A stretch of DNA of 64,000 nt from Henriciella sp. (GTDB lineage: Bacteria; Pseudomonadota; Alphaproteobacteria; Caulobacterales; Hyphomonadaceae): NCBI GenBank assembly GCA_013213785.1, contig JABSPZ010000007.1, positions 186,001 to 250,000 of the forward strand, given 5' to 3'. The stretch's first letter is position 1, and each line of letters opens with the position of its first letter. A program made the position numbers and the translations under genes. Shown here piece by piece: positions 56,180 to 63,460 of the stretch. The notes under the pieces were generated by a model. The model worked only from the letters and a program-made list of their open reading frames with translations, was not told the DNA's origin and searched no databases.

Positions 56180-56380
56180 CTATTTCAGGATGAAGGTCAC
56201 CTTCATCACCACGCGGTATTCTTTAATCTCGCCTTTTTCGAGGACCAAAGACTGATCCTTGACCCAAGCGCCTTCGACGTTGTTGAGCGTTTTATTGGCC
56301 CGGGCGATGCCCTTTTTGATCGCGTCATCGAAGCTCTTCTTCGATCCCGCGATAATTTCTGTCACACGTGCAATAGCCAT
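56180..56380 (-). CDS. Dodecin, flavin-binding storage protein
   Basis: 66 residues, normal dodecin length; it forms a hollow 12-mer that stores flavin. Matches in order: VTEIIAGSKKSFDDAIKKGI, ARANKTLNNVEGAWVKDQ (with the flavin-stacking Trp) and EYRVVMKVTFIL. GGGAGG precedes the ATG. It lies 80 bases after the divL-like gene on the same strand. Confidence 0.93.
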   Translation of the reverse strand: MAIARVTEIIAGSKKSFDDAIKKGIARANKTLNNVEGAWVKDQSLVLEKGEIKEYRVVMKVTFILK

Positions 56381-56461: not shown

Positions 56462-58897
56462 TTACGCCGCGAGCTTTTCGGGTGAGCCTGAGCCGCCCTT
56501 TGGAGTCGCTTCGATCGGGATCCAGCAGACGACTTCCGTACCGCCGCCCGGCTGGGACTTAATGCCGACATTGCCGCCGTGAAGCTGCACGAAGTGCTTC
56601 ACCAACGACAGGCCGAGGCCTGCGCCGCGCCGATCACTGGAGGTGAAACTATCAAATCGTGTCGCCTGATCTTCGGCGGGAATGCCGCGGCCATTGTCTT
56701 TAACGGTGAGCTTCGCGGTATCTCCCATGCGCTCAGCAGAAATCGTCACCTGCCCGCCTGGATCTGTGAAGCGCAGCGCGTTCGAGATCAGATTGAACAG
56801 CACCTGACGGATCCGTTTCTCGTCCGCTTCGATTTTACCGAGATCTTTCTCAATATTCGAGACGACTTCGACTTCTGTGTCCGCAGCGTTCGTGACCCCG
56901 ATGGAAACCGCTTCTTTGATCAGCGCTTTCAGGTCGACCTCTGTGATATCCAGGTCCATGCGTCCAGCTTCGATCATGGCGAGATCGAGAATGTTACCAA
57001 TCAGATCATTGAGGTGATTGGAGGCTTCACAGATCGCATCGACTTTATCTCGCTGCGCATCATTCAGGTCGCCGATGCGTTCCATCTGCAGGAATTCGCC
57101 GTAACCGAGTATGGTCTGCAGCGGCGAGCGAAGCTGATAAGAGACGTTCTTGACGAACTCTGTTTTCAATCGATCCGCTGTTTCGAACGCCTCGGCGCGA
57201 TCGCGCAGGGCCGTTTCAACAGAGCGCTGCGCCGACACATCCGCGAACGCGATCAGCGTGTTTCCATCCGGAAGAGGCTTGGTCACATAAGTCAGGATCG
57301 CGCCATCCGAGCGTTTCATCTCGCCGGTCGTCTCCTGGCGGGCGCTCGGGTCAGTGATATGCCCTTTGATTGCGGTCCAGGTCGCGCGATCATGAAAGAG
57401 CGGGACGCAGAAATCTGCGATATCGTCATAATCCGGTTCGTCTTTGAGCAAGTCTTCTTCAACGCCCCATAGCTCCGCAAAGGCGCTGTTCCATAGCTTC
57501 AAACGCCCATCGGTTCCAAACACTACGACCGCTTCATGCAAGCTATCGAGGGTTTTGCCTTGGGTTTTGATCATGGCGTTATATTTGGTTCGAAGGTTCA
57601 GCTCGCTGGTAATGTCCTTAAACAGGATCAACAATCCGCCCATAGGGTGGCGCTGACGCGTTACTTTCAAGGTGCGATTGTCCGGCAAGTGCCATTCGTC
57701 TTCTTCAATCCCGCTAATATCGAGATAGTAAGACAGCTCTTCCGCCCGCCATTTCGCATATTCAGACTGCGCCGGCAGCTTGCGACGCTCCCGCAGACGA
57801 TCAAGCAATTGACCATGGCTCGGCATATCGAGCAGGAAGCCTTCATCCATATCCCACATCTTCGCAAAAGCGCGGTTGTGGAAAGTCAGTTTCCGCTCGC
57901 TGCTAAAGATCGCAACGGCATCCGCAACATGGTTCAGCGTTTCATCGTGCGCCTGGACATGCTTATCCAACTCATCGCGGGCGCGCTCTTGTTCAGTGAC
58001 GTCAAACGCCATCGCACCAACACCGCCTGAGAGCGGGAAAGACAGAATGCGCATCGCGCGGCGATCACCGCCAATCGCAATGTGGCGTGTCTCGTCCAGC
58101 TCTTTGCCTTCGGTGAGTGTCTTACGAACTTGCTCAACCGCTTTTTCATCGAGCATCACTTGGCGCTCAAGGACGCGGTCCAAATTATCGCCTTCGACGG
58201 CATCAACATAAGCTGGGTTCGCCCACTGCAAGCGTCCTACGCCTGAAATTCGCCAGGCCGGGAACGGCGCTTTGCCGAGCATGTCTAAGAATGCGGTTGG
58301 GTCGCGTGCGATCACTTGGCGGGCCTCTTCCAGGCGGCCGCGTGCAGAGCTTTCCTCAAGCCCTTTGATGGTTGAGTCCGTGACCCAGACAACGACGCGT
58401 GCTCCCGCTGTGCGTCCGTCTGCCTCCAAAAAGCGTCCATTCTGTCCAATAATGGTCAGCGAGAATGGGTGCCCCTCTTCCGCGAGTTCGCGCAGGCGCA
58501 AACGCAGGGTCGTATCGATGCCGCTTGCATCGCGCGCTTCCAAATCGGCAAGGCCCTCAATGATCCGCACGGCTGGATCGAGCGATACAGCGTCATCGGT
58601 AAATCTGAGAAGGCTCGCAAGAGCGACGGGGGAGCCGTGAATATCAGGCGGCGTAATCTCCGCTGCGTCGACATCAATGTCCTCGCCCTGCCAGACCAAG
58701 ATCACACCCGGATGCGCGCCCAAGACAGACTTAAGCTCAGCCACAGATGATTCCGCATCATGCGCTTTATCTTTATATCGCTTTGCTGCGCCGCGGGCTC
58801 CATCAGAAGTTCGCAAGGCCCAAAGGATGAAGGCCAGTCCAAGCGCCAATGCGCCAACCGCGATAATAACCGGGATCTGATCAGCGGTGATCTGCAT
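56462..58897 (-). CDS. divL: DivL-like PAS kinase with Tyr at the phospho site
   Basis: 811 residues from ATG 58897 (GGAGG upstream). One membrane helix (about 8-28), a coiled coil, several PAS domains (about 200-570), then a DHp domain and an HATPase domain. The H-box reads FVKNVSYQLRSPLQTILGYG: tyrosine (about residue 587) stands where kinases have histidine, as in Caulobacter DivL. The ATP-binding N, G1 and G2 boxes (NLISNALRFT, DNGRGIP, GAGLGLSL) are intact. DivL controls the CckA-CtrA cell-cycle pathway at the flagellar pole; a CtrA-type box lies upstream. Confidence 0.9.
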   Translation of the reverse strand: MQITADQIPVIIAVGALALGLAFILWALRTSDGARGAAKRYKDKAHDAESSVAELKSVLGAHPGVILVWQGEDIDVDAAEITPPDIHGSPVALASLLRFTDDAVSLDPAVRIIEGLADLEARDASGIDTTLRLRLRELAEEGHPFSLTIIGQNGRFLEADGRTAGARVVVWVTDSTIKGLEESSARGRLEEARQVIARDPTAFLDMLGKAPFPAWRISGVGRLQWANPAYVDAVEGDNLDRVLERQVMLDEKAVEQVRKTLTEGKELDETRHIAIGGDRRAMRILSFPLSGGVGAMAFDVTEQERARDELDKHVQAHDETLNHVADAVAIFSSERKLTFHNRAFAKMWDMDEGFLLDMPSHGQLLDRLRERRKLPAQSEYAKWRAEELSYYLDISGIEEDEWHLPDNRTLKVTRQRHPMGGLLILFKDITSELNLRTKYNAMIKTQGKTLDSLHEAVVVFGTDGRLKLWNSAFAELWGVEEDLLKDEPDYDDIADFCVPLFHDRATWTAIKGHITDPSARQETTGEMKRSDGAILTYVTKPLPDGNTLIAFADVSAQRSVETALRDRAEAFETADRLKTEFVKNVSYQLRSPLQTILGYGEFLQMERIGDLNDAQRDKVDAICEASNHLNDLIGNILDLAMIEAGRMDLDITEVDLKALIKEAVSIGVTNAADTEVEVVSNIEKDLGKIEADEKRIRQVLFNLISNALRFTDPGGQVTISAERMGDTAKLTVKDNGRGIPAEDQATRFDSFTSSDRRGAGLGLSLVKHFVQLHGGNVGIKSQPGGGTEVVCWIPIEATPKGGSGSPEKLAA

Positions 58898-58972
58898 GAC
58901 ATCCTCCAAGGGCGGCGAACGAATCACTCGTCGACGCGCAGTACTAACGGTTAACCGAATGCTAGCTTAGCG

Positions 58973-59354: not shown

Positions 59355-59786
59355 ATGTCCCGAGGATCCGCCGGAAGACCACAGAAAACAATCAAGACCG
59401 GCGAGACATTCGCGCTGGCAGAGTGGTTCAACAAGAATGTTGATCACCTAACTGATCTCACAAATGAAGAATTGGCGGCGAAGCTGGGATACACGCGTCC
59501 GAACATCATCAGCATGTGGAGAACTGGTCGAACAAAGATTCCGCTGGATCGACTAGCCCCGCTTTGCGATGCGCTGAACGTCGATCTGTCATACCTGCTT
59601 CCCTTGTGGATCGAACAGTATGGCGGTGCCGAAGCAAACGCGCGTGTCTTGAAGGTTTTGCGGAATACGGTGTCTGAATCAGAAATGGCGTTGGTCGAAA
59701 CGGCGAGACAGATAACCGCCGGTCGCAACTTTACGCTCAAACCCAATGCACTTGAGAAGCTCAGAGAGGTTGTTGAGAAAGATTAG
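59355..59786 (+). CDS. XRE-family helix-turn-helix protein
   Basis: 143 residues. Helix-turn-helix in LTNEELAAKLGYTRPNIISM with WRTGRTKIPLDRLAPLCDAL; a C-terminal helix follows. No toxin or phage neighbour is apparent and the target is unknown. AGGAAA precedes the ATG. The basic, Gly-rich N-terminus (SRGSAGRPQKTIKTG) resembles an AT-hook-like tail. Confidence 0.8.
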   Translation: MSRGSAGRPQKTIKTGETFALAEWFNKNVDHLTDLTNEELAAKLGYTRPNIISMWRTGRTKIPLDRLAPLCDALNVDLSYLLPLWIEQYGGAEANARVLKVLRNTVSESEMALVETARQITAGRNFTLKPNALEKLREVVEKD

Positions 59787-60247
59787 CCGATGACCAATCC
59801 TGAAAGCTCAAACGTTTAGCTGATTAGTTAGCGAGAGTGGAATCCCTTCCTCTCCGCCACTCACAGCATTCAACCCAAAAATTCTATATTTACAACGTTT
59901 TAGCAAGATTGAATTTTTGAATGTAGGACATCAGTCGACGCAATTGTAGGACACAATCGTCTCGCGCTATTTGGTTCAATGCGATGGTTTTCCCGGCCGA
60001 GTATCAAACTGGATCGCACTCAAAAGCAAGGTTGAGCTTAGTGTCTGCTTTCGGCGTCAAAGCGGACTTTAGCTCAGCGACTTAAAACGCCCTGAAACGG
60101 ACTCTCATCAATGCGAATTGAATGAGGAGATAGCACTTTTCTCATGTTTCGTAATGTCATGACACGAAAGTCTGCATGCATTGGAAGATTTCACTTGGCT
60201 AAGAATAGTAAAAAGCTGGATAGTAGTGTTCTGACAGGGAGGTCCCA
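59787..60247. other. Intergenic region with repeated TGTAGGACA
   Basis: AT-rich. TGTAGGACA occurs at 59922-59930 and 59945-59953; the second is the centre of the palindrome ATTGTAGGACACAAT. A CTTAAAACGCCC motif lies at about 60081. No convincing gene was found. Confidence 0.4.
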
Positions 60248-61060
60248 TTGCCGTCTACCAAGTGGTCTAAGAAGACAGAAAAAATCGAGGTGCGTTTGCC
60301 CCCCGAAACCAAATCTGACTTTCTGGAAACTTGCAAACAAAGAGGCGAATCCGCGTCTTCTGTGATCCGTGGATTTGTCGACAACTACATTCAACAACTC
60401 TATGTCGAGAAGTGGCGTTCGCCAACGGAGCTCGTTCGAAACTTACCCTGGTGGTCCAAGTTCGGTTCGATCGGCGCCATCGTCGCGGCGATCTTTGCCG
60501 TCGTTGTTTTGCCAACGCAGGCGATGAGCGAAATACCTTGGAAGAATAGGTTTGAATCCAAAGATCGAGATAATAATGGCGTAATCGAACCGGCGGAGCT
60601 CATTGTCGCGCTGAGCCCTGATCTCGCAGAACAGTTCTCCGATAGTGAAGTGAGAAAGCAAGAGCGAGGAATGACTACTGCGAATTATCGAGAATTCTTG
60701 GAAATGGACGGCAACGGCGATTTCAAAGTTTCGAAATCGGAATTTCGAGCATACTTGATAGAGAAAGAAACCGAGGTCTTTCAGTCATTTGATTTAAACT
60801 CAGATGGTTATCTGGATTTCGAAGAATTGCTTCTGCCGGTAGGTGAAAAAGCAAAAAGCCGTCGCACAATGTTAATTGGGTTTTCTCATTCTCGGTTTGG
60901 ATTTGGCTCTAGGTCGAAAGCCGGCTCTTCGCGCAACGACTGTTTCAAACCGTGGCTCGACAGCGACGTCAAAAACACATGGAATTTGGCACCCGTTTTT
61001 GCAACTATGGATAACGATGGAAACTGTAGGGTTACATTGACCGAGTTCGCCAGCTTCTAG
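60248..61060 (+). CDS. RHH-transmembrane-EF-hand protein, possible calcium-sensing regulator
   Basis: 270 residues, TTG start with GGGAGGT 4 bases upstream. N-terminal ribbon-helix-helix-like segment (about 11-48: KIEVRLPPETKSDFLETCKQ then SASSVIRGFVDNYI), one membrane helix (about 72-90) and an EF-hand region. Loops at 106-117 (DRDNNGVIEPAE) and 182-193 (DLNSDGYLDFEE) are canonical; those at 154-165 and 255-266 lack the central Gly. The layout predicts a cytoplasmic DNA-binding head and a periplasmic calcium-binding tail, a ToxR-like arrangement. DNA binding is inferred; the RHH part could instead serve dimerisation. Confidence 0.75.
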   Translation: MPSTKWSKKTEKIEVRLPPETKSDFLETCKQRGESASSVIRGFVDNYIQQLYVEKWRSPTELVRNLPWWSKFGSIGAIVAAIFAVVVLPTQAMSEIPWKNRFESKDRDNNGVIEPAELIVALSPDLAEQFSDSEVRKQERGMTTANYREFLEMDGNGDFKVSKSEFRAYLIEKETEVFQSFDLNSDGYLDFEELLLPVGEKAKSRRTMLIGFSHSRFGFGSRSKAGSSRNDCFKPWLDSDVKNTWNLAPVFATMDNDGNCRVTLTEFASF

Positions 61061-62593: not shown

Positions 62594-63460
62594 TCAGAAT
62601 TCGATCCACATCTCGTTATCGTAACCATCGATCAGCAGAACCGCCTCAGAAAGAACATCGAAGCCGATGATGGCGCGCGAATCCATTGGAAATCTTAGCG
62701 CGTCTCCGCTCAAGACATTTTTGGTTGGAACCGTGATTTCAGAAAATGAAACTTCTATGGCTCCATACAACGCTCCCGTCTGCGTTTCCTTCAAGGAATG
62801 CCTTCTCACCGTTTGGATTGCCTCAGCGCCTGGACTTAAAAGCTCAGGTTGAATCGTGGTCAATGAAGACCCCGTATCCAAGAAAACTCTGACTCTTTCT
62901 GTGATGCCGACGTCAGCCCAGGTGTAATAACCTTCTGGCAAATAGACTTTTTCCGTGGAGTTTGGAAACGACGGAAACTGGCACGATTCCGAAATGGGTT
63001 TTTCCCAAGTATGGATCGTTTTATCTCGGAAATTGAAAACGCCGCAGCGTTTGAGAGACAACAGACGAGGATCAATCACTCCGTCTAAGTCTAGCAGTTC
63101 TAGGATTGGTAGAGTAACGACAGAGATTCGTTTAGCACGTCCGATAAATCTGCCATTTTCAAGCTCAAAGGTTAGATCAACTGCATCAATAGATGTGTTG
63201 TCGCTTTCAAATACCTCCAAATCAAACCCAGCATCTTCAGCGCTATCCGCATTCAGCAATAACTCATCTGCGCCCGTATCGAGCGCGAGTTGCATTGGAA
63301 CCCCATCAATCAACAGGAGGATGGACGGAACGCGCGTCAGGTTCGGGTTTTCTGGCGTCGAAGCGATGATGATTTCCGCTTCCGGTAAAGCAATTTTTGG
63401 CTGATTGCAGCCAGTTACTAATGTCATGCAAGCTGACACGGCTAAAACGAAAATTTTCAT
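62594..63460 (-). CDS. Lipoprotein with two retropepsin-like DTG motifs
   Basis: 288 residues. Lipobox LVTGC (Cys about residue 18). Two aspartic-protease active-site motifs are visible: LALDTGADELLL (Asp about 61) and VFLDTGSSLTTI (Asp about 195), each followed by a beta region; the second lobe ends with AIIGFDVLSEAVLLID. This suggests a bilobal, pepsin-like enzyme made of two retropepsin-type halves in one chain, tethered in the cell envelope. Substrate unknown; activity is inferred from the paired motifs. Confidence 0.75.
   Translation of the reverse strand: MKIFVLAVSACMTLVTGCNQPKIALPEAEIIIASTPENPNLTRVPSILLLIDGVPMQLALDTGADELLLNADSAEDAGFDLEVFESDNTSIDAVDLTFELENGRFIGRAKRISVVTLPILELLDLDGVIDPRLLSLKRCGVFNFRDKTIHTWEKPISESCQFPSFPNSTEKVYLPEGYYTWADVGITERVRVFLDTGSSLTTIQPELLSPGAEAIQTVRRHSLKETQTGALYGAIEVSFSEITVPTKNVLSGDALRFPMDSRAIIGFDVLSEAVLLIDGYDNEMWIEF

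Follow-up and report, generated by a model that had tools for sequence, protein, structure and literature searches.

A Henriciella protein joining a ribbon-helix-helix domain, a hydrophobic segment and EF-hand loops: a candidate membrane-tethered, autoregulating regulator

Background

The DNA-binding fold of ToxR/CadC-type regulators is a winged helix, and the known ribbon-helix-helix (RHH) repressors of the Arc/MetJ/CopG superfamily (e.g., AmrZ, CopG, TacA, and RelB/DinJ) recognize a short palindromic operator and regulate their own genes. To our knowledge, none of the RHH proteins matched in this study is a membrane protein. We analyzed a stretch of 64,000 nucleotides from Henriciella sp. 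(assembly GCA_013213785.1, contig JABSPZ010000007.1, positions 186,001 to 250,000; the whole stretch is hereafter referred to as the window) and focused on one gene (60248-61060, + strand), for which our computations revealed an RHH fold match, a chain of RHH domain, hydrophobic segment and EF-hand part, an upstream operator, covariation between a strand residue and operator bases, and internal starts in its relatives. The gene belongs to an apparently undescribed family that resembles the RHH repressors in its fold, in a strand of alternating hydrophobic residues ending in R, in a short palindromic operator, and in its likely autoregulation, but differs from them in that the RHH domain of the window protein precedes a membrane segment and an exported domain. 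On balance, the window protein is probably an RHH regulator that is tethered to the membrane, controls its own gene, and holds its EF-hand domain in the periplasm.

ToxR/CadC-type regulators combine a cytoplasmic DNA-binding domain, a single membrane helix, and a periplasmic domain in one chain, a layout that the window protein would share, and the words ribbon and RHH are absent from the main text of a survey of this type (PMC10269533). The window protein adds a signal-peptidase-like site to such a layout, and its relatives add an internal start. In a related bacterium, Caulobacter vibrioides, the periplasmic multi-EF-hand protein CaBP (CCNA_02838) takes part in a regulatory loop with SigV, where regulation runs via an extracytoplasmic function (ECF) sigma factor and the accessible part of the report mentions no RHH part (PMC13171946). 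ToxR-ToxM toxin-antitoxin pairs also associate an RHH regulator with a membrane protein, but in the portion of that report available the RHH antitoxin and the membrane toxin are separate proteins without an EF-hand, whereas the window protein has no toxin domain (PMC11980606). RHH proteins are named only as separate proteins in operons in the corresponding portion of a further report (PMC11237479). Our literature search, which had most subscription papers outside its reach, found no description of a family with an RHH domain, segment, and exported domain; for the operator sequence TGTCCGGACA of family members described below, the matches listed comprised just p53-family, other eukaryotic, or wheat-genetics papers.

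Results

Layout of the window protein

The open reading frame at 60248-61060 (+) begins with a TTG codon, is preceded by GGGAGG at 60237-60242, and encodes 270 amino acids (aa). Its features, with the evidence in brackets, are as follows.

60248..61060, + strand: RHH domain, linker, hydrophobic segment, and four EF-hand loops, 270 aa (open reading frame, translation, Pfam)
60155..60169, + strand: putative operator TGTCATGACACGAAA with the palindrome TGTCATGACA at 60155-60164 (motif search)
60237..60242, + strand: Shine-Dalgarno (SD) sequence GGGAGG serving the TTG start (sequence)
60269..60415, + strand: RHH domain, residues 8-56 (profile, AlphaFold2, Foldseek)
60281-60283, + strand: K12 codon, proposed specificity residue (covariation)
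60461..60523, + strand: hydrophobic segment FGSIGAIVAAIFAVVVLPTQA, residues 72-92, with a signal-peptidase-I-like T-Q-A end (translation, alignment)
60563..60598, + strand: EF-hand loop 1 DRDNNGVIEPAE, canonical (Pfam, loop pattern)
60707..60742, + strand: EF-hand loop 2 DGNGDFKVSKSE, Phe in place of Gly6 (loop pattern)
60791..60826, + strand: EF-hand loop 3 DLNSDGYLDFEE, canonical (Pfam, loop pattern)
61010..61045, + strand: EF-hand loop 4 DNDGNCRVTLTE, Cys in place of Gly6 (loop pattern)

The exported part matched EF-hand_1 of Pfam in three stretches (1.4e-17, above the cut-off), and a full model of the window protein matched calmodulins with E-values from 3.9e-4. EF-like loops begin at residues 106, 154, 182, and 255; with respect to the helix-loop-helix and canonical 12-residue loops of the EF-hand superfamily, two of the four loops (1 and 3) are canonical, and loops 2 and 4 lack Gly6.

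For the N-terminal part, the predicted secondary structure comprises a strand at about residues 10-17 and helices at 19-32 and 36-56. A profile of 24 family N-termini matched the solved RHH proteins DinJ (9.2e-6), ORF56 (4.4e-4), ParG (0.01), VapB26 (0.03), and RelB (0.2) among 10 matches, of which 2 were unrelated proteins. AlphaFold2 modeled the full protein from a 41-row alignment with a mean predicted local distance difference test (pLDDT) score of 75.8 and block means of 85-97 for residues 11-50, and modeled the N-terminal part alone as extended-helix-helix with a mean pLDDT of 85.8; the strand is extended and unpaired in these monomer models. The best Foldseek matches of the N-terminal model were AmrZ-DNA, VapB, MatP, CopG-DNA, Arc-DNA, CdbA, TacA, NikR, and DinJ. 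The beta-alpha-alpha fold and strand pattern of the RHH superfamily are thus seen by profile and models, with Pfam remaining sub-threshold. Moreover, the RHH domain was the most constrained part of the gene by the ratio of nonsynonymous to synonymous differences (pN/pS, 0.10-0.19) in all three ortholog groups tested, which argues that the long form is used. No toxin gene of the RelB/DinJ type was found next door among the Pfam matches of the seven window neighbors scanned, one of which, a helix-turn-helix (HTH) protein, gave a sub-threshold YdaS_toxin match.

A preliminary description of this DNA had proposed an RHH-like N-terminus, one membrane helix, and EF-hand loops, two of them canonical. 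The RHH proposal is upheld by the DinJ profile match, the AlphaFold2 helices, and the Foldseek neighbors (with weak E-values), the EF-hand loops by Pfam and the loop pattern, and the arrangement as a whole by the open reading frame, profile and model matches, and the hydrophobic stretch; homologues with the identical three-part layout, sought in the order and in named genomes, were also found. The same description had likened the protein to ToxR. This remains plausible for the layout, with RHH domain, hydrophobic segment, and EF-hand part in one chain (the A-x-A end of the segment may mean cleavage), but not for the fold, as Pfam gave no match to the winged-helix domain Trans_reg_C in the window protein; the protein therefore perhaps works like the ToxR type and is not filed as a ToxR homologue.

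A family with a constant N-terminal half and varying exported domains

The family occurs chiefly in the window's order (Caulobacterales-type bacteria) and is rare in the class as a whole. Using a profile that spans both the RHH and the exported parts, we collected 93 unique family members, of which the 92 with at least 100 aa were counted throughout. Matches at an E-value of 1e-5 occurred in 114 of 299 genomes of the order, an upper bound that includes weak, short, and stop-containing matches, and another scan matched 53 of 101 genomes, with EF-hand-only matches included. A family-alignment search recovered 46 named loci, including Henriciella, Ponticaulis, Parvularcula, Maricaulis, Oceanicaulis, Brevundimonas, Caulobacter, and Hellea, as well as loci in Kordiimonas, Ruegeria, Tateyamaria, and Roseibium, which we take to be members of the Rhodobacterales and Kordiimonadales; the window protein as a single query retrieved no relative from the contigs of the named genomes, whereas the family alignment did. 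Across the class, 5 of 385 genomes matched at 1e-8, of which two belong to the same taxonomic family as the window and one is a fragment interrupted by stops, and plasmid records searched with one Rhodobacterales member gave no match.

The closest relatives of the window gene (30-38% identity) come from three genomes that belong to a different genus within the same taxonomic family, two of them aligning over nearly the full length and one over residues 5-202. The N-terminal half (RHH and segment) is constant, and the exported half varies between EF-hands, TonB_C (L002:2436, 1.7e-8 in Pfam), and no Pfam domain among ten members scanned. Several members have no EF-hand, and calcium is therefore not the common input of the family.

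Four family genes, one apparently decayed, are present in the window's genome. Two form a tandem pair (G000:C2:136035-137287, L002) of an EF-hand type and a TonB_C type with their own operators, TGTCCTGACA and TGTCCGGACA. The fourth (G000:C6:113952-114110; L004, L191) has a TAG within its RHH part and an exact TGTCCGGACA upstream, and is probably decaying.

Gene clustering at 66 loci revealed no neighbor recurring in all groups, the widest non-family cluster covering 17 loci; gene order was left unread at 12 of the 66, where the family gene was not displayed, probably due to the choice of an overlapping frame. The neighbor sets were only syntenic, one (presumably glutamate-synthase/UppP-like) shared by up to 17 loci of Henriciella and Ponticaulis and a second (presumably GyrA-like/kelch-like) in Henriciella L116 and L130, Maricaulis/Oceanicaulis loci, and L126. 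The small Caulobacteraceae-type members L087, L103, and L122 lack an upstream TGTCNNGACA, and their operator may be a different one; the gene adjoining them (also in L094 and L123) is, we assume, signal peptidase I-like.

A probable operator whose core varies with one strand residue

Aligning the upstream regions within six groups, each of 2 to 11 genes, brought out a common palindrome. Exact TGTCNNGACA lies within 300 bp upstream of 67 of the 92 members, compared with a mean of 0.44 and a maximum of 2 in 50 first-order shuffles, and 13 of 25 clusters contain at least one exact site. A specific operator near the own gene, as in the RHH superfamily, is hence found in most members, with 12 of 92 showing no site even at one mismatch. 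The distances are restricted (49 of the 67 sites at -100 to -115), a second, weaker or degenerate box follows 22 bp after the first, and two members outside the order (G343 and G592) also carry a TGTCNNGACA site. Among the 299 order genomes, the long form GTGTCCGGACACGAA gave 8 rows representing 7 sites, all close upstream of family genes (reversed control, 1). In the window's genome, TGTCNNGACA with a CGAAA tail has two exact sites, both preceding family genes. The site of the window gene is the sole TGTCNNGACA within the window, its palindrome being located about 93 bp ahead of the start codon. Visual inspection places the first box upstream of the presumed -35 region and the second near it, positions that would fit autorepression and would fit activation too.

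The central base pairs in Arc and CopG are touched by the first exposed position of the RHH strand. The 15-mer TGTCATGACACGAAA occurs five times in 105 family genomes, namely at the window gene, its three relatives, and G041, and all five sites precede a family gene with K at this position. The G041 gene (strand KKSEKIEVR), with an exported domain different from that of the window gene, had already been a family match, but its sequence was first examined once its operator had turned up. K also stands at this position in a sixth member, L034, whose CGTCATGACG retains the AT core but differs at two outer bases and was not counted as a site; there is a similar CGCCATGACG 22 bp further upstream. 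Among the 65 of 92 members with both an exact site and a readable strand motif, an AT core was found in 3 of 3 K members and 0 of 62 non-K members, which have other cores. Members with K are found in clusters 0, 3, and 8 and in G041, and shared descent accounts for part of this pattern. The covariation between K12 and the operator core lends indirect support to the predicted placement of the dimer's strands in the major groove of the DNA and suggests that the core may be predictable from one strand residue, K going with AT, and T/S and others with CG and other cores.

Segment end and internal starts

The single long uncharged stretch of the translation (residues 72-92) ends in LPTQA, and no other core among the 92 members is as hydrophobic (Kyte-Doolittle 3.12 vs. 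a median of 2.09). A92, which would directly precede the cleavage point, is nearly invariant (in at least 90% of 41 rows), and an alignment of 24 rows shows the same for P and A in the P-S-x-A end; the EF-hand part may be released by cleavage at the end of the segment.

Of the 92 members, 75 further have an in-frame ATG no more than 24 codons ahead of the hydrophobic core, compared with 211 of 473 control windows from the same genes. With the nearest ATG always taken, an SD match of at least 4 bases preceded 65 of these 75 internal ATGs (control, 43 of 211) and one of at least 5 bases preceded 50 (control, 11 of 211), where synonymous codon resampling expects 38.3 and 23.1, respectively. The excess persisted with one member per cluster (at least 4 bases, 17 of 20 vs. 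7.6 expected, P 5e-5; at least 5 bases, 8 of 20 vs. 3.2 expected, P ~0.001); for comparison, the first starts of 82 members have such matches in 59% and 24%, respectively. Three members without an internal ATG have TTG or GTG there, after SD matches of 7-8 bases. Synonymous differences (pS) in the linker were lowered in two groups (0.37 vs. 0.56-0.72; 0.45 vs. 0.55-0.74) and not in the Rhodobacterales group (0.66 vs. 0.59-0.80). These results suggest that most family genes give two products, the long form and an RHH-free secreted form. An internal start was sought in the window gene and is absent, GTT standing where, in an alignment made by eye, its relatives usually have ATG; the window gene may be a form committed to staying membrane-bound.

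A second candidate target upstream of rpoH

One paralogue type (strand KKSESLDIR, EF-hands, TTTT-tailed operator) is present in 10 of 29 genomes of the genus; G004, unclear at first, proved to hold the TonB_C type. In all 10 genomes with this EF-hand paralogue, an exact TGTCNNGACA stands at -194 to -200 relative to the gene we take, from its sequence, to be rpoH; among the 19 genomes without the paralogue, a single one shows an exact match within 320 bp, at -223. The hint arose in the window's own genome, so that the independent count is 9 of 9. One of the 10, G005, has an RpoH 89% identical to that of the window's genome, compared with 90% for the siteless G012, G022, and G023, and shared descent still accounts for part of the pattern. 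For the AT-core type, to which the window gene belongs, the exact palindrome recurs once elsewhere in the genome, within a coding sequence.

Discussion

We infer for the window protein DNA binding in the cell, repression, and a topology with the RHH domain inside and the EF-hand part outside the inner membrane. The N-terminal strands of an RHH dimer would bind TGTCATGACA before the protein's own gene, most likely repressing it, with the hydrophobic segment crossing the inner membrane and the EF-hand part lying in the periplasm. RHH dimerization or access to DNA would then change when calcium is bound or when cleavage removes the domain. Across the family, one module of RHH and segment would be joined to different exported domains, most genes having their own operator, and most relatives, not the window gene, would also yield the RHH-free secreted form from the internal start. 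The exported part would either sense (calcium here, judging by the loops) or be the product whose supply is regulated; that calcium is the signal for the window protein is a guess.

Several observations weigh against this interpretation. Pfam gave no RHH model above the cut-off for the window protein (best, ParG at 0.021), its RHH models were also sub-threshold in the ten members scanned, and the Foldseek E-values of this short domain (0.49 or higher) are not significant alone. No exact TGTCNNGACA was found for 25 of the 92 members, 13 of which have a one-mismatch site; the 12 others comprise 6 of the 7 genes in the Caulobacteraceae-type cluster 5, three of the Kordiimonas type, one gene of a tandem pair, L124, and L034. 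TGTCNNGACA alone is not rare in the window's genome (39 sites vs. 30 for the reversed control), and the window gene has a degenerate second box. The EF-hand loops are all that points to a calcium role for the window protein, and the signal-peptidase-like A-x-A end argues for cleavage, which would break trans-membrane signaling.

Another possibility, which we regard as real if rather doubtful, is that the gene encodes a secreted calcium-binding protein with its own autorepressor as an N-terminal extension. Signal peptidase I would free the EF-hand part, and the RHH remnant, still in the membrane or set free by proteolysis afterwards, would report the amount made or exported with no trans-membrane sensing of a ligand. 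The nearly invariant alanine of the P-S-x-A/A-x-A end, the moderate median hydrophobicity of the family cores, the SD-led ATG at the would-be start of a signal peptide in most members, and the mutually unrelated exported parts all favor this; however, the core of the window protein is the most hydrophobic of all, and its gene lacks an internal start, so that the RHH domain is always attached when the protein is made. A tentative combined reading, which we hold possible without expecting it, is that an RHH autorepressor forms the N-terminal extension of a secreted protein, that translation from a second in-frame start with its own SD sequence yields just the secreted protein, and that the signal peptide serves as both anchor and scissile joint, the export state or calcium being written back to the operator and, in one paralogue, to rpoH. 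This would be an undescribed gene design.

It is improbable, by comparison, that the RHH domain serves only dimerization or an antitoxin-like role and that another factor, such as a sigma factor or an unrelated repressor, reads TGTCNNGACA: the antitoxins DinJ, RelB, and VapB26 are among the profile matches and the site lies near the presumed promoter, but the operator core tracks the RHH strand residue in several clusters and genomes, and no neighboring gene is common to all groups (maximum 17 of 66 loci). We give still less credence to an accidental in-frame fusion of a small RHH gene and a secreted EF-hand gene of which only the separate products are used. The internal SD-ATG in most members would suit such a fusion; against it, no stop interrupts the poorly conserved linker of variable length in the 92 members aligned, a count favored by the profile spanning both parts, and the window gene has no internal start.

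If the membrane-tethered regulator is real, the RHH fold joins the output domains of membrane-bound one-component regulators. The internal starts suggest two proteins from many genes, of which annotation with a single start would miss one, and the conserved rpoH site suggests that an exported EF-hand domain has a direct connection to the heat-shock sigma factor. The family raises the interest of the window gene by its visible operator, its putative one-residue code, its internal starts, and its candidate rpoH link.

Upstream repeats and other genes in the window

The preliminary description had named the repeats of TGTAGGACA upstream of the gene as possible targets of the regulator. They are present at 59922 and 59945 as stated, and the idea of a DNA target near the gene stands, with a candidate in the TGTCNNGACA site at 60155, but the repeats themselves were rejected as the RHH target. 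With up to one mismatch, TGTAGGACA is not over-represented in the window (5 found vs. 6.18 expected), and the pair TGTAGGACA-N14-TGTAGGACA occurs exactly three times in the genome (59922-59953; G000:C2:2341-2372; G000:C4:253858-253889), each copy within a longer similar stretch, as a separate three-copy element. No exact pair was found in the other 99 genomes searched, which gave four two-mismatch rows in three genomes. Near the other two pairs lie genes for what we take, by sequence motif, to be a ParA-like ATPase. A small HTH_3 protein (59355-59786, +; Pfam, 1.3e-7) is encoded upstream and is possibly related to the TGTAGGACA element that follows it.

Elsewhere in the window, 62594-63460 (-) encodes a retropepsin-like aspartyl protease with a lipoprotein-like start (Asp_protease_2, 4e-7 in Pfam), and 56180-56380 (-) encodes a dodecin (6.6e-23 in Pfam) adjoining a PAS histidine kinase at 56462-58927.
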